Source: a virus. From it: a DNA stretch of 64,000 bases. Within the stretch, counting starts at the first letter, position 1; each line of letters starts with the position of its first letter. The stretch covers positions 39,654 to 103,653 of the IMG/VR virus record IMGVR_UViG_3300030044_000016; one strand, written 5' to 3'. The position numbers were made by a program, and so were the translations under genes. This document shows, piece after piece, positions 2 to 40,439 of the stretch. The notes beneath the pieces were generated by a model. That model had not been told where the DNA came from. It did not search any database and saw only the letters and a program-made list of their open reading frames with translations.

Positions 2-142
2 GGGATTAAGACCAATCAACCCCACTACATGGAGTTGCTGAAGACAAAGATTCCCCAAGACACTCTAAAGAAGTTTATCGACAAAAACCCTCATGTGTTT
101 GATAGTGTATCTAATGCCCTGCCACCACAACCAATCGCCTAA
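2..142 (+). CDS. 3' end of an upstream gene, possibly RNA polymerase beta N-terminal part
   Basis: An open frame enters from the left edge and ends with TAA at 140-142, giving about 46 C-terminal residues ending in PPQPIA. Its stop overlaps the next start as TAATG, so the two genes are probably translationally coupled. The fragment has no motif I recognise. The next gene starts in the middle of RNA polymerase beta, so the missing N-terminal half of beta would be expected directly upstream; that identity is inferred from context only. Confidence 0.5.
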   Translation, partial: GIKTNQPHYMELLKTKIPQDTLKKFIDKNPHVFDSVSNALPPQPIA

Positions 143-3100
143 TGGATCTTTTTGAACAGATGTTCCCTGGCCTCCTAAAAGAGGCTGGAGCTTTTGATGC
201 GCACTCTGCAGAGTTTATCCCTGCAATGAGACGGGGCAAGCTGACCTATGCCTCCCCCAAGGAGGTAGACTACGAGATCATGTCTCCTAGTCATTTGTAT
301 ACTGAGGCCTCTAATTTGTCTCCAATGGGGAGTACCATGGCAGGCGCTAGATTGTTCATGGGGTCGAAGTACGTAAATCAAGCTCTGCCGCTCAAGGATC
401 CAGAGGCTGCGCTAGTCCAGGTATTGGATGATGATACAGGCAAGCCGCTAGAACAAGTGATTGGATCTAAGGTTGGCTTAGTCAAGTCTCCTGTGCATGG
501 GACTATAAAGAGGGTAGACAAAGAAAATGTACTAATAGCTGGCGCTGACGGCAAAGAGCACAACGTAGAACTGAGGAACTTCTATAGCCATAACAGGAAA
601 ACTCAAACTACCGATACTCCCTTGGTGAAGGAGGGGGATGTTGTTAAGCCTGGTCAGTCATTGGCTCACTCTAATTATGTGATGCCGGATGGCACTCTAG
701 CTCTAAGTAAGAACCTCAGGGTAGCGTTCATGCCAGGAAAGGGTGGTGGTACATTTGAGGATGCCATTACAGTGAGTGAAGGTGCTGCTAAGAAACTTAC
801 GTCTAATCACATGATTGGATTTGATGTCGACCATAAGGGGGGTGTTGTGTCGGACAAGTCGAAGTTTATGCAACTGTTCCCAAACAGGTACACAAAAGAT
901 CAATTGGATAAGATCGGAGAGAATGGAATGGCCAGAAAGGGCGTAACATTGCAAACTGGAGATCCAATATTTTTGTCTTTGTCTCCTAGGGTACTTAGGG
1001 CTGAGGACCGCGCCAAGGGCAATCTACACAAGATTCTTAAAAAGTCATTCTCTGATAAGAGTCAGACCTGGGAAAAGTCGGTTCCTGGTGTGGTGGCAGA
1101 TGCCGTAGAGACTAGGCATGGTCTATCTGCAAATATTTCTGCTGACTTCCCACTAAGTCAGGCTGATAAGATTTCTTCTAGGGCTGCGGCAAAAGGCGTA
1201 ATTGGGTCTATTGTTCCAGATCACAAGATGTTTAGGGATAGTGATGGGAACCCTATTGATATTTTAATTAACCCAGCGGCCCTAATCGGCAGAAAGAATC
1301 CCATGATGGTTTTCGAGGCAATGCTTGGTAAGATAGCCCACAAGACTGGACAAAAGTATGTAATGCCCTCCTTCTCCACTGATTCATTCCACAAGTTCGT
1401 CTCGGGGGAACTAAAGAAGCACGGCGTATCCGATACAGAAGATCTATTTGATCCAGAGACTGGCAAAAAAATTCCCAATGTTCTTACTGGTATTCAGGCG
1501 TTTTACAAACTAGAGCACACAGCTGATACTAAGTGGAGTGCTATTGATGAGGGTGGGGTGGATCAAAATTTTCAGCCCACAAAGCCAGGCGGAACGAGTA
1601 GCGCAAAAAGAATCGGAAACCTTGACGTAACTGCCTTACTGTCTCATGGCGCAGTAAAGAACTTGTATGATATCCAAAACTATCGTACTGGAGGCGACCC
1701 AGATCTTTGGCGTGCAATCCGTATGGGTCACCCACTTCCCGCCCCAAAGGTCCCATTTGTGTATGATAAGTTTATTAATACGCTTAAGGGGGCTGGTATT
1801 AATACAGAGAGGAAGGGATCAAAGATTTTTATCAAAGCGCTAAAAGCTAAGGATATTGATGAATTGGTTGGACAGAGAGAGGTAAAGAATTCTGAGACTA
1901 TTGACCCTAGTAGTGGCCAACCCATACCAGGTGGATTAATGGATCAATCTCTGCATGGAATTGATGGAAAGAGATGGAGCTATATTAATCTTGGGGAGCC
2001 AGTACCAAATCCGATCCTTGAGGAGCCACTTAGGAAGATACTTGGGCTGACTGAGAGCGAGATGCGCGACATTCTATCCAACAAGGGACAGATCAATGGC
2101 AATACTGGGCCCAAAGCGTTGATTGATGCCTTGGGGTCTCTTGATCTAGACAAGGAGGAGCAAGACCTTAGAAGCAAGATTCGCAATGGATCTAGCACGA
2201 CTAGGAATAGCGCCGTACAGAAGCTAAATATTATTTCTGGAATCAAGAAACAGGGTATTGGGAAGGAAGATTTCTTTATGACTAAGGTTCCGGTTTTACC
2301 CGCCGCATATCGCCCTATTTCTATGGCTGGGAGGATGATGCTGAGTGCTGACTCCAATTATCTATACAAAGACCTAATGACAGCCAGGGATCTTCACGAA
2401 AAATCAAAACAAGATTTTGGTGATCAAGAGGCTGGCAATGAGAGACTTGCTGTGTACGACTCGCTTGCTGCTGTTATGGGGCTTGGTGACCCGCTTCATC
2501 CCAAGCTTGTGCAGAAGGGAGTTAAAGGGTTTATTCGCCAGCTAGCGGGGAGTGGAGGACCCAAGACGGGATCTCTCCTGGGGAAGGTTATTGGTCATAC
2601 AGTGGGGACTGTTGGGAGGGGGGCAATTATCCCGAGCGATGAGCTAGATATGGATCAGATCGGGGTCCCAGAAAAGATGGCGTGGAAGATGTATTCTCCG
2701 TTTGTCATGAGGCGCTTGGTAAAGCACGGAATGCCATCTAGTCAGGCAGCTCTGAATGTGGAGAGAAAGACCGATTATGCAAAGAGGTTTTTGTTGGAGG
2801 AGATGAAGGCTAGGCCGGTCATGTATAGTCGAGCTCCATCTTTGCACCGGTTCAACATAATGGGAGCAGAGCCACAGATTGTGACTGGCGATTCAATTAG
2901 GATCAGTCCATTAGTTGTAAAGCCCTTCACTGCGGACTTTGACGGCGACGAACAGGTTGGTAAAGTGCTTATTTTAAGGAGTTTGCAAAAAAAATGCACA
3001 AATAGTAAAAATCATTTGACACATCCATCACTATTGTGCGGTAGTGAAGACATGTTCAAGGATATCACACTACCACATTACAATCCCACCACTCATGAAG

Positions 3101-5154
3101 TATCAGTTGTTGACCTAGAGGACTTTCCTCGCGGAGAGTTTACGAATCGCAACGAGAACGGTAAGAATGGTCCAATAGATTTCTTTTCTGTCCCAGAGGA
3201 TATAATGGTCTTAGCACTCGACGAAAAGACAAACAAGCCTGTATGGGCGCAAGTTGCGTTTTATAGCAAGCATTACCAAAGGAAAATAGAGATTGTAAAT
3301 TTGCTGGCTGGTAGGCAGATCATTACAGACGACGACCCTCGCGCTGTTTATGGAATGGATCCATCAAGACCAGAAGACGGCCTTATTCGCTGCACTCCAA
3401 CTGAAGCGCTAAACCGTAAGATTTGTGTACCATATTCCCCCCACGCTGGAGCTGCTGTGAGCCAGTTGCCAGAAATTTCTGAGATCACAATAACAGATCG
3501 AGAGGATTGTATCTTCAAGAAACTCCCACTCACTAGGGAATTAGGGTATTTGCTTGGTGCCCTATGTGGTGATGGGTGGTGGGACAAAAAAGATTATGAA
3601 TATTACCACAAGCGAACAGATATGTTTGGTTCTAGAAATATTAATATGGCAGATCTAAAGGGGTATAATGCCTTATCTATAAAGAAAATATTGACAGACT
3701 TGTTTTTAAAGTCTGGGCCTCTTTATCATTATTCGATAGAGACGCTCAAAGCAAACAACCCATCCAGATACGGAGATACCGTCAAGCACACTTTTAACTT
3801 CAAGCACAGCGAGTTGTTTGCAGAATTTCTTTCTACTCACTTGGGTGGCGAGGGGGACGAAAATACCGCTGGTTCTGGCAACAAGCACCTATCTGGGTTT
3901 ATGTATCAAGCTCCACGGGAGTTCCGAGAGGGACTTCTTTGTGGACTGGTCGATACTGATGGATCCTGCTCGGTGTCGCACGCAAAGGAAAAGCCACAGC
4001 TACTATGTGCTTTTTCTAGCACGTCACTCAGGCTTGTTCGCGATGTTAAATTTCTTGCATCTACTCTTGGGATTAATTCTACAATCACCTGGTCCAAAAC
4101 CACTACCGCAGGAAATGATTCGTGGATACTGGCATTTTCCTCTGTTGACTGTAAGAGACACAATATTTTTGTGAATCTTGAGTGCCCCTGGAAGAAAGAG
4201 GCATTTTTGACCACGCCTGTCAGAGATGACTCCCCTGTGCTTGGTAAGTACGATACAGTATTTATACCGCATAGTCTTGCGAAGGAGTTTTCGAGGCAAC
4301 TTGGTAGCCCACAGATTACCTCTGACCTTAAAAAGATTGGTGGGGCTGCTCTCGAAGAGACTCTTGATAAGAAGGCCGTTTACAGAAATATTTGGGGAGG
4401 AATTGCCAGAGGAGCTGTCTCTAGGAATTCCGCCTACAGGGCAATTGATCAGATTAGGGAGACCTATCGTCGCGACGGAGCAATCATAGAAATCGCTCTT
4501 GAGGTAGCCAATAAGTGCCGTGATTCTGGCAAGCTGGATATGAAGTCCGCTCAGCAGATTAGGGCTGGAATCGTTCGGGTTGCTCCAGCTGGAACCCCCA
4601 ACTACAAATTGGTGAAGAATGTGTATAGCGGACTGGACAGGCCAATCAAGACTGGTAAGTTGCCAGAGTCCACTGCTGATCGCATTATCAAATTCCTGGC
4701 CGAAACTGAGCGCCCTCAATGCTACGTGGACACTCCTGAATTCCTGGAATGGTCTGAGAGGTTCCTAGAGAACAAATCTATCAATTGGTCCCCCGTCGAC
4801 TCTGTAGAAAAGACTGGAGTGTTAGAAGATGGATACGACCTAACGGTTCCAGGATATGAGACCTTCATGGCCGCTGATGGAGTTATTCTATCTAACACCA
4901 TGAATGTACACGTCCCTGTATCTGATGACGCAGTGAAAGAGATTAAAGACAGGCTCATGCCATCTCAGAACCTTCTCTCCATTAAAGGAAGAGATGCCCA
5001 CTATACACCATCTCAGGAGTTCGTCCTCGGGTTGTACAACACTACTGCTGTGGATCATAAGAAACCCAAGACTAAGTTCAAGAGCGCCGAAGATGTTATT
5101 GCTGCCTATAGAAGAGGGGACTTAAATATCGACAGTCAAGTTGATATTGGGTAA
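142..5154 (+). CDS. RNA polymerase: beta C-terminal half fused to beta-prime N-terminal half, with intein
   Basis: This 1670-residue protein is part of a phage multisubunit RNA polymerase. Residues about 20-560 match the C-terminal half of bacterial beta: a segment like IDYxxxSPSQ, the FEDAI motif, the KGVI/NP region and a C-terminal stretch like the SLGINIE end of beta. The chain then runs on without a gap into beta-prime, starting around residue 562 with a segment like the first helices of beta-prime, then PVLPAAYRPI, RAPSLHRF and the catalytic DFDGD motif at residues 932-936, which binds the active-site magnesium. A 649-residue intein follows. The extein resumes with TMNVHVPVS and stops after a VLGLY segment, about the middle of beta-prime; the rest is at 8837-11197. 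Start ATG overlaps the preceding stop. Beta/beta-prime fusions are known in a few bacteria, but this cut-and-join pattern is unusual as far as I know. Confidence 0.9.
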   Translation: MDLFEQMFPGLLKEAGAFDAHSAEFIPAMRRGKLTYASPKEVDYEIMSPSHLYTEASNLSPMGSTMAGARLFMGSKYVNQALPLKDPEAALVQVLDDDTGKPLEQVIGSKVGLVKSPVHGTIKRVDKENVLIAGADGKEHNVELRNFYSHNRKTQTTDTPLVKEGDVVKPGQSLAHSNYVMPDGTLALSKNLRVAFMPGKGGGTFEDAITVSEGAAKKLTSNHMIGFDVDHKGGVVSDKSKFMQLFPNRYTKDQLDKIGENGMARKGVTLQTGDPIFLSLSPRVLRAEDRAKGNLHKILKKSFSDKSQTWEKSVPGVVADAVETRHGLSANISADFPLSQADKISSRAAAKGVIGSIVPDHKMFRDSDGNPIDILINPAALIGRKNPMMVFEAMLGKIAHKTGQKYVMPSFSTDSFHKFVSGELKKHGVSDTEDLFDPETGKKIPNVLTGIQAFYKLEHTADTKWSAIDEGGVDQNFQPTKPGGTSSAKRIGNLDVTALLSHGAVKNLYDIQNYRTGGDPDLWRAIRMGHPLPAPKVPFVYDKFINTLKGAGINTERKGSKIFIKALKAKDIDELVGQREVKNSETIDPSSGQPIPGGLMDQSLHGIDGKRWSYINLGEPVPNPILEEPLRKILGLTESEMRDILSNKGQINGNTGPKALIDALGSLDLDKEEQDLRSKIRNGSSTTRNSAVQKLNIISGIKKQGIGKEDFFMTKVPVLPAAYRPISMAGRMMLSADSNYLYKDLMTARDLHEKSKQDFGDQEAGNERLAVYDSLAAVMGLGDPLHPKLVQKGVKGFIRQLAGSGGPKTGSLLGKVIGHTVGTVGRGAIIPSDELDMDQIGVPEKMAWKMYSPFVMRRLVKHGMPSSQAALNVERKTDYAKRFLLEEMKARPVMYSRAPSLHRFNIMGAEPQIVTGDSIRISPLVVKPFTADFDGDEQVGKVLILRSLQKKCTNSKNHLTHPSLLCGSEDMFKDITLPHYNPTTHEVSVVDLEDFPRGEFTNRNENGKNGPIDFFSVPEDIMVLALDEKTNKPVWAQVAFYSKHYQRKIEIVNLLAGRQIITDDDPRAVYGMDPSRPEDGLIRCTPTEALNRKICVPYSPHAGAAVSQLPEISEITITDREDCIFKKLPLTRELGYLLGALCGDGWWDKKDYEYYHKRTDMFGSRNINMADLKGYNALSIKKILTDLFLKSGPLYHYSIETLKANNPSRYGDTVKHTFNFKHSELFAEFLSTHLGGEGDENTAGSGNKHLSGFMYQAPREFREGLLCGLVDTDGSCSVSHAKEKPQLLCAFSSTSLRLVRDVKFLASTLGINSTITWSKTTTAGNDSWILAFSSVDCKRHNIFVNLECPWKKEAFLTTPVRDDSPVLGKYDTVFIPHSLAKEFSRQLGSPQITSDLKKIGGAALEETLDKKAVYRNIWGGIARGAVSRNSAYRAIDQIRETYRRDGAIIEIALEVANKCRDSGKLDMKSAQQIRAGIVRVAPAGTPNYKLVKNVYSGLDRPIKTGKLPESTADRIIKFLAETERPQCYVDTPEFLEWSERFLENKSINWSPVDSVEKTGVLEDGYDLTVPGYETFMAADGVILSNTMNVHVPVSDDAVKEIKDRLMPSQNLLSIKGRDAHYTPSQEFVLGLYNTTAVDHKKPKTKFKSAEDVIAAYRRGDLNIDSQVDIG
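2950..4896 (+). other. Large intein with LAGLIDADG endonuclease in the RNA polymerase DFDGD site
   Basis: In-frame insertion of about 649 residues (937-1585 of the host protein) directly after DFDGD. The C-terminal splice junction is clear: a YDLTVPGYETF block, then VILSN followed by Thr as the first downstream residue. Two LAGLIDADG blocks are visible, LGYLLGALCGDGW and LLCGLVDTDGS, so it is a homing-endonuclease intein. A block-B-like stretch reads GRQIITDDDPRAVYG with Asp where His is usual. If the extein is read as DFDGD-TMNVHVP, the first intein residue is Glu, not Cys or Ser, so the N-terminal junction is non-canonical or shifted. Block F has Asp, not the Cys of class 3 inteins. Confidence 0.85.
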
Positions 5155-7260: not shown

Positions 7261-8277
7261 ATGAGCAACATAGACAAAAAACCTGTCAGTTCTAATTGGG
7301 GCCAGATCGCCCACAGAAGTTCAGAAGCTGAGCACAGCAATGAAATCAAAGCCCTTAAGTTGGCTTTACAAGCGGAGCGAAAAGCTCACGAACAAACAGC
7401 AAAAGCCCTAAAGTCTGCTCGATCTTCGAGCGAAAGTGTGGTGGTCGCTCCAAGACCCAAAAAGACTTTGGCTAGCAAGGGTGATATAGTCGAGGTAATC
7501 TTCTCGGATGTTCACGGCAACAAACATGACCCACTGGCTTTTTCGGCACTACTAGGAGATCTAAAAACGATCAGGCCGGATAGAATTATTATCGGCGGTG
7601 ACCTTCTAGACTGCTCGGGATTTCTTGCAGAACATCATACGCTCGGGTATCTCGCTGAGACTGAGGACTCATACGAGGACGACGTAAAGGTAACCAATAT
7701 ATTGTTGGATCAAATCCAAAAACACTCTTCGTGTGAAGATATCCACTATATTGAGGGTAATCATGAGTGGCGTGTAGAGCGCTGGGCCGTTAATCAAAAG
7801 CTAGCCCATCATAAAGACGTAGAGCTTCTACGCAACACATTTTGTGCAGAGCATGTCCTGGGTCTTAAGGAAAGGGGTATCCAGTATTATCGGCAAGGTA
7901 TGACTCACGGAGACTGTATTACACCTGGTTGGGTTAAGTTTGATAAGGTGTCTTTTGTTCACAAAATCAGCAATGCTACTGACGCCGCTGAGGTTGCCCT
8001 TTCCAAGGCTGCAGGGAATATTGTATTCTTCGATTCACACAGGGCTACATTCAAGCCAAAGTTTTTGCCCAATGTTGGGCTTATCGCCGCATGGAATCCT
8101 GGGTGCTTGTGCAAACGTCAGCCCCACTACGCAAACACCAATCCGACCACCTGGACACACGGGTATCTAGTACGAGTTATTTCCAGATCTACTGGGAACT
8201 TTCAAATGATGAATGTCACGATCAACAATGGCGAATCCTTCGCTGGTCTTCTATTGAAGAACAGAGAGGAACAGTAA
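7261..8277 (+). CDS. Metallophosphoesterase (calcineurin-like fold)
   Basis: 338 residues. The first 75 are charged and helical. The catalytic domain then shows the two-metal phosphoesterase motifs in order: SDVHGN (Asp83, His85), GGDLLD (Asp114), EGNHEWR (Asn167, His168) and THGD (His216). Such enzymes hydrolyse phosphomonoesters, phosphodiesters, nucleotides or protein phosphates; the substrate cannot be read from sequence. It lies between the two RNA polymerase genes, after a 52-base gap containing TTGCACAAT. Helical N-terminal extensions suggest a binding partner or oligomerisation. Confidence 0.85.
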   Translation: MSNIDKKPVSSNWGQIAHRSSEAEHSNEIKALKLALQAERKAHEQTAKALKSARSSSESVVVAPRPKKTLASKGDIVEVIFSDVHGNKHDPLAFSALLGDLKTIRPDRIIIGGDLLDCSGFLAEHHTLGYLAETEDSYEDDVKVTNILLDQIQKHSSCEDIHYIEGNHEWRVERWAVNQKLAHHKDVELLRNTFCAEHVLGLKERGIQYYRQGMTHGDCITPGWVKFDKVSFVHKISNATDAAEVALSKAAGNIVFFDSHRATFKPKFLPNVGLIAAWNPGCLCKRQPHYANTNPTTWTHGYLVRVISRSTGNFQMMNVTINNGESFAGLLLKNREEQ

Positions 8278-8836: not shown

Positions 8837-11197
8837 ATGGCCTCGACTACTGTTGCACGACTAATTTTTGACTCTATTGTTCCCGAGAAGTATAGGGCTG
8901 ATCTACCCCCCGATCAGCCCATCGGGAGCAAAGAGGTCAAAGATATCCTTCAGCAAGTAGCTGAGCAGGATCCTGATAAGTATCGGGACATTTCTTTCAA
9001 GCTCTTGCGCCTTGGGTCAAAGGGTGCGGTTGAGACTGGCAGCTCGTTCTCTATGAACGACCTTGCATCCCCCATCGACAAAGACAAGTTGATGGATGAG
9101 GTGTCCCAGAAGGAGCGTGGTATCTTTGGAGACAAAGGTCTGGATCAGGACAAAAGAGAGCAAGCCCTCGTAAAGCTCTACGATCACTACTCCAACAAGA
9201 TGCCAGGGATGATCTTTGATGCATCTATGGCAAAGGGATCAAACCTTGCTAGGATGGTTGCATCAGGTGCTCGTGGTAATAAAGCCCAGCTCAATAGTAA
9301 TATTGGATCCGATTTCTTGGTGGTTGATCAAAACAACAAGCCAGTACCTATTGGTATTAAGAATTCCTACACAGAGGGATTGAACCCTGCTGAATACTTT
9401 GCTGCGTCATATGGAACTCGTGCTGGCCTAATATCAACGAAATTCTCAACAATGCATTCAGGATTTTTGAGTAAACAACTCAATTCTTCAATGTTAGATC
9501 TTATAGTGACGCAGCATGATTGCGGCACCAAGACTGGGATTCCAGTAGATATAGATGACGGTGATAACATAGGGTCAGTACTAGCCAAAGATACGTCTGG
9601 GCATAAGGCTGGTACCTTACTAACTTCAAAGATTATTGGTGACATAAAAAAATCGGGTAAGGATAGAATTGTTGTAAGATCTACCTTGACCTGTGAGTCA
9701 CCTAATGGAATATGCGCAAAGTGTGCTGGGACAAGAGAGAGAGGTGGGTTCCCTGCCCTTGGAGAAGCAGTTGGGCTGTCTGCTGGATCTTCTGCATCGG
9801 AGCCTTTAAGCCAAATGCAACTATCTAAAAAGCACTGTTTATCAAAAGGAACATTGGTTAGGATGGCAGATTGGACAACAAAAGAAATACAAGACGTTCG
9901 GACTGGGGATTTTGTCCTTGGATCTGATATTAATGGCAATACATTCCCATCTGAGGTGCTAAATGTTTTTGATAATGGGAATAGAGTGTGCCAGCGGTAC
10001 ACGTTCAGCATAAACAATCTCGGAAGGACAAGTGTTGTTTGTACGGCTGACCACAAGATTCTATCTCGTTGGTACAAAAGTATGTGTGCTGGGGATGACC
10101 TAAATTGGACAAATCAAGTTTTGCCTATTGGTACTAAGACCAATAAGTTTTATGGAGTATTACCAATGGGATTTACTTCTGTCGGATTGAGAGATGAACC
10201 ATTTGATTGTGTGGTAGATTGCAGAAAGCTCAGGCGCGTTGGCATTGAGGAGATGGGTAGTGTACCTACATTTGATATAGAAGTGGGTCACCCAGATCAC
10301 CTATTTGTTCTTGCAAATGGACTTGTTGTTTCTAATTCAGCAGGCGTTGCCAACTCGTCCAAAGCTACAGGATTCAAGGCTATCAATGCTTTGTTTCAAG
10401 TCCCAGACACTTTCCCAGACAAAGCCTCTCTGTCGGAACACGATGGACAGGTTGACAAGATCGAAACGATGCCACAGGGTGGGTTCAATGTATCTATTGG
10501 TGGGCACAAGCACTATGTATCTCCAGACCACCAGGTTCTGGTAAAGCATGGTGATAAGTTAGAGGCTGGGGACAGAATTTCTACCGGTACAATTAATCCA
10601 TCTGATGTTGTTCGACTGAAGGGGATCGGAGCGGGACGTTTAAATCTCTTAAAGCAGGTACAAGACACTTTCAGCGAGAGTGGAATTCCTATGCTCAGAA
10701 GGAATGCTGAGGTGTTGGTTCGTGGCATTGTAGATCACGTCAGGATCAACGACTCTGACGAGACAAACTCCTATCTGCCCGATGAGACAGTTGAGTACAG
10801 TGCCTTCAGCAAGGACTACAAGCCCCACAGGGATTCTGTTGTCATGCACCCAACCAAAGCACTCAATCACTATCTAGAGGCTCCTGTGATGCACTACAGC
10901 ATCGGTACAAGGATTACTCCTAGTGTTGCCAAGAATCTTGGAGACATGGGTGAGGATCAGGTTCTAGTTAGCCATCACAAGCCAGCCTTTGAGCCTCACA
11001 TGGTTCGACTGATGGAAAACCCATCCCACGACAAGGATTGGATGTCCCAGATGGGTACGTCCTATGTGCAGAAGAATCTCAAGAAGAACGTCATCAGTGG
11101 CGATGTCTACTCAGACATCCACGGGACAAACCCAATCCCTGCCCTCGCGTACGGGAAAGAGTTTGGAAAGCCACCCAAAGGTACAGTAGGGTACTAA
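8837..11197 (+). CDS. RNA polymerase beta-prime C-terminal half, with intein
   Basis: 786 residues. It begins like the middle of beta-prime (TTVARLIFDSIVP) and has the SGARGNKAQL motif (bacterial SGARGSKAQ), a segment like GLNVLQYFISTHGARKG, the TxxDCGT motif, the CAKCAG half of the second zinc site (partner residues CESPNGIC just before), and GEAVGLSAGSSASEP, equivalent to GEAxGxIAAQSIGEP. The trigger-loop segment SQMQLSKKH-SAGVA is split by a 167-residue intein. The rest covers the C-terminal jaw and clamp area. It completes the beta-prime begun in the gene at 142-5154, 3.7 kb upstream. The start ATG has no strong ribosome-binding site. Confidence 0.9.
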   Translation: MASTTVARLIFDSIVPEKYRADLPPDQPIGSKEVKDILQQVAEQDPDKYRDISFKLLRLGSKGAVETGSSFSMNDLASPIDKDKLMDEVSQKERGIFGDKGLDQDKREQALVKLYDHYSNKMPGMIFDASMAKGSNLARMVASGARGNKAQLNSNIGSDFLVVDQNNKPVPIGIKNSYTEGLNPAEYFAASYGTRAGLISTKFSTMHSGFLSKQLNSSMLDLIVTQHDCGTKTGIPVDIDDGDNIGSVLAKDTSGHKAGTLLTSKIIGDIKKSGKDRIVVRSTLTCESPNGICAKCAGTRERGGFPALGEAVGLSAGSSASEPLSQMQLSKKHCLSKGTLVRMADWTTKEIQDVRTGDFVLGSDINGNTFPSEVLNVFDNGNRVCQRYTFSINNLGRTSVVCTADHKILSRWYKSMCAGDDLNWTNQVLPIGTKTNKFYGVLPMGFTSVGLRDEPFDCVVDCRKLRRVGIEEMGSVPTFDIEVGHPDHLFVLANGLVVSNSAGVANSSKATGFKAINALFQVPDTFPDKASLSEHDGQVDKIETMPQGGFNVSIGGHKHYVSPDHQVLVKHGDKLEAGDRISTGTINPSDVVRLKGIGAGRLNLLKQVQDTFSESGIPMLRRNAEVLVRGIVDHVRINDSDETNSYLPDETVEYSAFSKDYKPHRDSVVMHPTKALNHYLEAPVMHYSIGTRITPSVAKNLGDMGEDQVLVSHHKPAFEPHMVRLMENPSHDKDWMSQMGTSYVQKNLKKNVISGDVYSDIHGTNPIPALAYGKEFGKPPKGTVGY
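9836..10336 (+). other. Mini-intein in the beta-prime trigger-loop segment
   Basis: A 167-residue in-frame insertion (residues 334-500) with canonical class 1 features: first residue Cys (CLSKGTLVRMAD), block B TADH, block F TFDIEVGHPDHLFV, and C-terminal VVSN followed by Ser. It has no LAGLIDADG or other endonuclease domain. It splits SKKH from SAGVA, which aligns with the bacterial TMRTFH/GG sequence of the trigger helix. Splicing must occur to give a working polymerase. Confidence 0.9.
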
Positions 11198-39250: not shown

Positions 39251-40439
39251 ATTTAGCCGAGTCCTTCACCAACACCAAATCGCCATGCGGAACGCACGAT
39301 TCAGAGTCAATATCGACAGACCCGATGCTTTTAGCGGCTTTAATGCTCGCCGTCTCCGAAGCGTTGCACGCTATGGAGACAGACCGCGCCCGGATGTTCT
39401 TCGAGGCTTGGCGGTCTGCGTCGTCCTTGTGGCCGCACTTCTGACAACAGAAGCGCAAGCCTTTCCGGTTCGATGCCGAGACATGGCCGCAGGCACTACA
39501 CCCACGGCTTGTGTTGCGAGGACTGACCGCTTCCAATTCAATTCCAACGGCGGCTGCCTTGTATGCGATCTTGAATCGCATATCGGCGTAAGGCCATCGG
39601 TGAACCTTGGAACGCAAGTCCTTCCCTTTGCTCAGAGAACTGTCTCGTATATTCTCCAAGTTTTCGACCACGACCTTTCTTGCTCCGACTTCAACCGCGT
39701 AGCTGACCAGTGCCTTACTTGCTGTGTGGAGCAAGTGCGCTGTTACGGCAGCCTCGTGCCCGGACATCCTTTTCAGGAGTCGCCGAGCACTTCTGGTGCC
39801 AACAGACTGAACAGCAGCGCGGGTGCGCCGGATACAAGAACGACGGTGATTCAACACCCCGCCGTGGAAGAAAAATGGTTTGGCGTTTGCCGAGTTGGTA
39901 GCGACCAGCATTCGCTTGATGCCGAAATCACAGCCGACAATGCAGCCCTCGGTCTTTGGCTCGGGGATCTCGACTTCGTGAGCCAAGCAGAGAAACCACT
40001 GCCTGCCGACGCGCTTGATCTTGGAGTCTTTCCATGCGCCTTCCGGCAATGGGCGGGAATCAGCAACGGTCAAAAGTTCACCCCAAAGCGTGACGCCTTT
40101 TTGGGTGCGATTGAAGTCCCGCTTCCACACCACAGGGATCACGGCGCGGGAGAACTTAGCCAATCTCCATCGCTTGTTCGATCTGGCGGTCTTGTAGGTA
40201 GCGCAGACTGTTTTGCAGAGAGAGCAGGCCAACTGAGACGGCAACCCCATCTCCCGGAGGTTGGCGTAGTGGGCTTTTGCCAGTCGATTCGAGTTCAATT
40301 CCTCGGTCTTGAAGACAATGTCGGAAAGCCAGTTCGCCGCCTTCAACCAAACAGTAAGCAACCCGTCAGCTTTTGTGCTGCCGGAAATTTTGAGCTTGAC
40401 TGTGCGGATTGCTTTCACTACATTGAATACTACTACCAA
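39237..40439 (-). CDS. tnpB: TnpB RNA-guided nuclease of an IS605-type element
   Basis: 400 residues, full length for TnpB. The split RuvC site is complete: Asp171 (GCDFGIKR), Glu259 (VVVENLENI) and the C-terminal Asp at 340/342 (KDDADRQASKNI). The zinc ribbon has CSACGH and CCQKCGH. TnpB proteins cut DNA matching a guide RNA made from the element end and its flank; they help retain the element after excision. The guide here would be copied from the sequence left of 39227. The start lies just upstream of, and opposite to, tnpA. Confidence 0.93.
   Translation of the reverse strand: MVVVFNVVKAIRTVKLKISGSTKADGLLTVWLKAANWLSDIVFKTEELNSNRLAKAHYANLREMGLPSQLACSLCKTVCATYKTARSNKRWRLAKFSRAVIPVVWKRDFNRTQKGVTLWGELLTVADSRPLPEGAWKDSKIKRVGRQWFLCLAHEVEIPEPKTEGCIVGCDFGIKRMLVATNSANAKPFFFHGGVLNHRRSCIRRTRAAVQSVGTRSARRLLKRMSGHEAAVTAHLLHTASKALVSYAVEVGARKVVVENLENIRDSSLSKGKDLRSKVHRWPYADMRFKIAYKAAAVGIELEAVSPRNTSRGCSACGHVSASNRKGLRFCCQKCGHKDDADRQASKNIRARSVSIACNASETASIKAAKSIGSVDIDSESCVPHGDLVLVKDSAKSPCL

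Follow-up and report, generated by a model that had tools for sequence, protein, structure and literature searches.

An RNA polymerase gene in a 64,000-nucleotide stretch of viral DNA (positions 39,654 to 103,653 of the IMG/VR record IMGVR_UViG_3300030044_000016; hereafter, the window) is interrupted by an intein that, together with about 27 viral relatives at the same site, probably splices by a chemistry that has not yet been described, because the family lacks the amino acids with which known inteins start splicing. From the pattern of conserved residues, we consider it reasonably probable that these inteins excise themselves without the help of residue 1, through a direct attack of the first C-extein residue, Thr+1, on the N-terminal junction, in a first step similar to that of the class 2 inteins.

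Insertion Site and Borders

The interrupted gene is an open reading frame of 1670 amino acids (142–5154, plus strand, like the intein parts and the second intein described below) that encodes a β–β′ fusion of a phage multisubunit RNA polymerase. The N-extein (142–2949) comprises the C-terminal part of β and the N-terminal part of β′, as identified by Pfam RNA_pol_Rpb2_6 and Rpb1_2, NCBIfam rpoB/rpoC and tblastn matches to phage RNA polymerase genes, and ends with the metal-binding DFDGD motif of β′ (2935–2949). It is followed by a full-length intein of 649 amino acids (2950–4896), starting with Glu and ending with Asn. The Thr+1 codon begins at 4897, and the C-extein, TMNVHVPVSDDAV... (4897–5154), was recognized by its homology to intein-free RNA polymerases.

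The closest intein-free homologues, L002–L004, are 73–76% identical to the window just upstream of the insert. Their empty sites read DFDGDQINIHVPVS in L002 and DFDGDQMNVHVPVS in L003 and L004, and the consensus of close intein-free homologues across the site is DFDGDQ[IM]N[IV]HVP. The window reads DFDGD, the insert, and then TMNVHVPVS. The comparison with L002–L004 thus shows that the insertion, which is in frame and at a conserved extein site, is exact, and that the sole change is the replacement of Q by T. The junction directly after DFDGD is constant among the 28 family members described below, and the Cys1 of two allelic inteins occupies the position of the window Glu. These comparisons settle that the left border lies directly behind DFDGD and that Glu is residue 1. 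An initial annotation, made from the sequence of the window, had proposed this location and this first residue, together with a comparison with intein-free homologues that would fix the border, and was right on both counts; its suggestion that the N-terminal border might instead lie elsewhere is excluded by the same data. It had also described the intein as interrupting the three-aspartate metal site, but DFDGD is intact and the insert directly follows the triad. The 103,653-base record, which is possibly a fragment, yielded no second copy of the β′ active centre. With this one copy in the record, it is plausible that there is no polymerase activity before splicing.

A Viral Intein Family without a Fixed First Residue

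We found 27 further distinct members of the family in contigs from uncultivated viruses, which brings the number with a readable N-terminal junction to 28, including the window. All of them are inserted at D-[FYH]-[DN]-G-D of an RNA polymerase β′ gene. Since the 28 members have the same site and the same features, the peculiarities of the window intein are not a matter of chance.

Residue 1 was Gln in ten members, Glu and Asp in three each, and Lys, Leu, Phe, Tyr, Ala and Cys in two each; Ser and Thr did not occur. This residue changes at least 18 times on the tree of the 28 members, a variability that makes a chemical role for its side chain unlikely. The block A consensus is xQIGSVLIxV. Block B has the consensus [TSA]DDDxRA[VI][YF]G, in which DDDxRA is invariant, and a block B His is found in none of the 28. 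Class 1 chemistry requires Cys, Ser or Thr at residue 1. It is thereby excluded for 26 of the 28 members, among them the window intein with its Glu; the Thr-x-x-His of a class 1 block B is missing from all 28. This supports the first of the two options given in the initial annotation, a splice chemistry that differs from that of class 1.

The C-terminal end is, by comparison, nearly unchanged: GYDLTVPGxETF...LSN/T (the slash marks the splice junction) recurs in 27 members, and Asp F:4, Ser G:6, Asn G:7 and Thr+1 are each present in 27/27. The Ser and His of an S-x-H motif are also invariant, as are the block F Thr residues in 27 members. The intein-free genes have either Gln (L002–L004) or Ala (Salmonella phage Arash and Vibrio phage D69) at position +1, and Thr+1 recurs in both of the allelic inteins; Thr+1 therefore tracks the intein and not the polymerase. 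Its invariance points to selection for a nucleophile, which C-terminal cleavage alone would not need.

Some members stood out in other respects. Cys1 is limited to L012 and L058, two of the three members inserted at DYDGD, which are found in different parts of the tree. The contig of L012, on which L033 also lies, has three inteins in one phage polymerase gene: two canonical class 1 inteins (CFTG... and CFHP...) and the Cys1 family member at DYDGD. In L080 (position 1468), the catalytic motif is DFNGD, with the middle Asp changed to Asn, and block B reads ADDD; this is possibly a dead polymerase or a decayed intein.

Allelic Inteins with Cys1

A search for ADFDGDC yielded two inteins at the same site, L091 (8806–10320) and L099 (764–2287), both with Cys1 and with a canonical block B that ends in SEDH. 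Their homology to the family extends over the whole length and includes both the splicing and the endonuclease domains (blastp E values down to 2e-46). The first strand of L091, CYYGQVLVD, aligns without gaps with the family sequence QQLGSVLVN, and Glu1 of the window is therefore equivalent to Cys1. A supported branch (98/95) separates 18 family members from L091 and L099, which sit on long branches. Class 1 is the likelier ancestral state. A final scan for more inteins of the Cys1 group at this site found none. Both L091 and L099 end in Asp rather than Asn before the Thr (VWD/T and VQD/T).

Motifs and Predicted Structure of the Window Intein

The block A strand, EQVGKVLIL (2950–2976), aligns residue for residue with the Cys1 inteins and corresponds to a strand at residues 5–11 in the AlphaFold2 model. 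It leads into a loop of variable length (2977–3090) with a low predicted local distance difference test (pLDDT) score, which is also where the genes of the split relatives are broken. The nearly invariant LEDFP (3115–3129) forms the end of the second strand, and YSKH (3262–3273) represents the S-x-H motif, which is usually WSxH. An apparent resemblance was seen between the N-terminal strand of the intein and the polymerase strand behind DFDGD, although the extension of the hidden Markov model was weak.

The block B equivalent, TDDDPRAVYG (3325–3354), contains no histidine. Its register is ambiguous by one residue: an alignment that runs without gaps from the hairpin before it (GRQIITDDDP versus GRELLVSEDH) puts the first Asp at Thr/Ser B:7 and a Pro or Glu at the His position, and there is no histidine in either register. 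The initial annotation had Asp in place of the block B His; the loss of the His was correct, and the Asp would hold if TDDD is read as TxxH, but not in the ungapped alignment. Block F, GYDLTVPGYETF (4831–4866), has Asp F:4, a Glu where the block F His would be and no Cys, as borne out by 27/27 members. Block G is VILSN followed by Thr+1 (4882–4899), with Ser-Asn/Thr in 27/27. The C-terminal junction had been called normal, and LSN/T is indeed observed, but the usual ending is HN and not SN; a Ser as the penultimate residue is a feature of class 2 inteins (PMC4031507).

Between the splicing blocks are two LAGLIDADG motifs with acidic residues, LGYLLGALCGDGW (3541–3579; Pfam LAGLIDADG_3 and Hom_end, Foldseek match to I-DmoI) and FREGLLCGLVDTDG (3922–3963; Pfam LAGLIDADG_3), which mark a putative homing endonuclease. 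The C-terminal intein motif TIGR01443 exceeded its cut-off and Pfam Intein_splicing fell short of its own; the canonical N-terminal profile TIGR01445 matched only behind the loop. The AlphaFold2 model of the window intein (pLDDT 82) had TliVMA as its best Foldseek match (E = 3.6e-14), followed by PI-PfuI and PI-PkoII; a second member, L038, modelled separately, also matched TliVMA (E = 2.6e-19). The insert is thus an intein with a LAGLIDADG endonuclease domain, presumably removed by excision with ligation of the exteins.

Naturally Split Relatives

Two lineages carry the intein in split form. In L064 (9000–9330), the N-terminal half ends in DFDGD-YQNNSVILLINKDLHESKSLKINDK, with 25 intein residues, followed by a TAA stop codon, and the second part begins with an ATG behind a GGGAGG ribosome site. 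The other case was seen on two contigs, L065 (9683–9762, minus strand) and L054 (3180–3520), which showed 0/500 mismatches. Here, the N-terminal half ends in DFDGD-LQINSVFVRFYDKSSEGQKIK, with 21 intein residues, and the second half follows after a gap, in another frame, behind a match to TTGACA-16-TATAGT and a ribosome-binding site. The near-consensus sigma-70 promoter and ribosome site in the gap suggest that the two halves are expressed separately. Recoding of a stop codon was considered as a cause of the splits and rejected, given the TAA and the GGGAGG before the ATG in L064 and the frame change across the promoter-bearing gap in L065. In both lineages, the gene is broken within the loop that follows the first strand. 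This is independent support for the view that the strand forms a structural unit of its own, beginning at residue 1.

Proposed Splicing Chemistry and Alternatives

Residue 1 is free, and Asp F:4, the terminal Asn and Thr+1 are fixed; a direct attack by Thr+1 followed by Asn cyclization therefore fits the family best. The hydroxyl of Thr+1, activated by Asp F:4 and held in the acidic block B (DDDxRA), would directly attack the peptide bond between Asp(−1) and residue 1. Cyclization of the terminal Asn together with an O-to-N shift would resolve the resulting branched ester, to yield DFDGDTMNVH and an active polymerase. We infer from the conservation pattern that Thr+1 is the first nucleophile. 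Several points weigh against this scheme. Thr is a weaker nucleophile, splicing by the family is predicted from sequence, and the confidence of the model was low at residues 1–3 of the window intein. The invariant S-x-H leaves room for an internal nucleophile, and the known class 2 inteins need both His B:10 and Cys+1, neither of which is present in the family (PMC4031507).

An internal nucleophile would imply a class 3-like route, in which the Ser of WSxH or a Thr of block F first takes over the N-extein and then hands it to Thr+1. The invariance of these residues would suit such a route, and class 3 inteins accept any residue 1 and mostly have Ser or Thr at +1 (PMC5222942). However, the family lacks Cys F:4 and Trp B:12, has at F:4 the Asp of classes 1 and 2, and carries S-x-H outside the usual active-site blocks; we consider this route unlikely. 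The third catalytic Asp of the polymerase, Asp(−1), might also attack its own carbonyl to form an anhydride that is taken up by Thr+1. Residue −1 is Asp in 28/28 members, even in L080, and an acidic block B together with an unconstrained first residue would fit this arrangement, but the conservation of Asp(−1) is no evidence for it, because polymerase function and site-specific homing fix this residue anyway. We know of no intein precedent for such a substrate-assisted reaction, and we regard it as very unlikely. We also think it quite unlikely that the intein is degenerate and capable only of C-terminal cleavage by Asn cyclization, with the polymerase working as two cooperating chains. The loss of both the residue 1 nucleophile and the block B His is as seen in decayed inteins, and two members are already split genes; against this, Thr+1 is invariant at a position taken by Gln or Ala in the intein-free genes, the splicing blocks remain strongly conserved despite a large divergence, and the C-extein strand retains a normal sequence. 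Relaxed selection on the C-extein strand was considered as a sign that splicing does not occur, but was rejected, since intein-free phages are equally variable there.

The window intein has Cys at positions 16 and 30, and the N-terminal profile matches only further in, as might be expected of an ordinary class 1 intein with an inner border, for example at a loop Cys, and an unusual extein. This is highly improbable: the loop Cys are not conserved, the homologues have no extra extein there, and the Cys1 inteins L091 and L099 begin directly after DFDGD. A border at a loop Cys was therefore rejected. Phage virion RNA polymerase β′ genes can carry group I and group II introns (PMC12350094), so that an RNA intron with an in-frame endonuclease gene was also considered. 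No Rfam intron match was found in the window or its relatives, Thr+1 and the protein sequences of blocks F and G do not vary, and 871 loop codons remain free of stops in the 26 unsplit members (p about 7e-19), which makes an intron barely conceivable.

Other Features of the Window

A second intein (9836–10336), a canonical class 1 mini-intein with Cys1, TADH and SN/S, interrupts a separate gene for the C-terminal part of β′ (8837–11197) and served as a control. The polymerase of this phage thus contains two inteins, and the virus carries ordinary class 1 inteins as well. A 338-amino-acid open reading frame (7261–8277), located between the two polymerase genes, resembles a calcineurin-like metallophosphatase (DxH...GGDxxD...GNHE).

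Comparison with Known Inteins

Three mechanistic classes of inteins are known, of which classes 2 and 3 each apparently arose once. To our knowledge, no described class has the features of this family. Scans of 84,980 prokaryote genomes (GTDB) and of isolate phages turned up no family member, and one of the phage searches gave only weak, partial matches, mostly to helicase-type inteins; a full-text search of the open-access literature for a fourth or new class returned no paper (subscription literature lay outside its scope). The chances appear evenly balanced that the family represents a fourth class, distinguished by the lack of an N-terminal nucleophile, block B His and block F Cys, by a Thr+1 attack that is possibly assisted by Asp(−1), and by natural trans-splicing forms with N-fragments of 21–25 residues. 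Protein ligation would benefit from inteins that are indifferent to residue 1 and come with such short natural N-fragments, and the insertion site would couple the production of active phage RNA polymerase to splicing.

Class 2 is known only from KlbA orthologues, which have Ala1, Ser G:6 and Cys+1 and depend on Thr B:7, His B:10 and Asp F:4 (PMC4031507). Like the Mja KlbA orthologues, the family has no N-terminal nucleophile, but has Asp F:4, Ser G:6, a terminal Asn and a nucleophile at +1. Unlike them, it tolerates any residue 1 instead of Ala, has Thr+1 instead of the directly attacking Cys+1, lacks the required His B:10, is ambiguous at B:7 and is not a KlbA orthologue. With class 3, the family shares the free residue 1, Thr+1 and an association with phages. 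Class 3 requires the Cys F:4, Trp B:12 and Thr G:5 of its WCT motif (PMC5222942), whereas the family has Asp, Arg or Ala, and Leu at these respective positions, and also lacks His B:10.

The archaeal full-length inteins TliVMA, PI-PfuI and PI-PkoII, whose solved structures have an active site of the Cys1 and His B:10 type, share with the family the Hint fold and the LAGLIDADG endonuclease. The closest comparison is with the allelic class 1 inteins L091 and L099, which lie at the same site and have homologous splicing and endonuclease domains as well as Asp F:4 and Thr+1, but differ in their Cys1, block B His and terminal Asp. A diverse viral family at a single site has thus dropped the first nucleophile and the block B His beside two inteins at that same site that have both, which opens the switch between chemistries to direct comparison.
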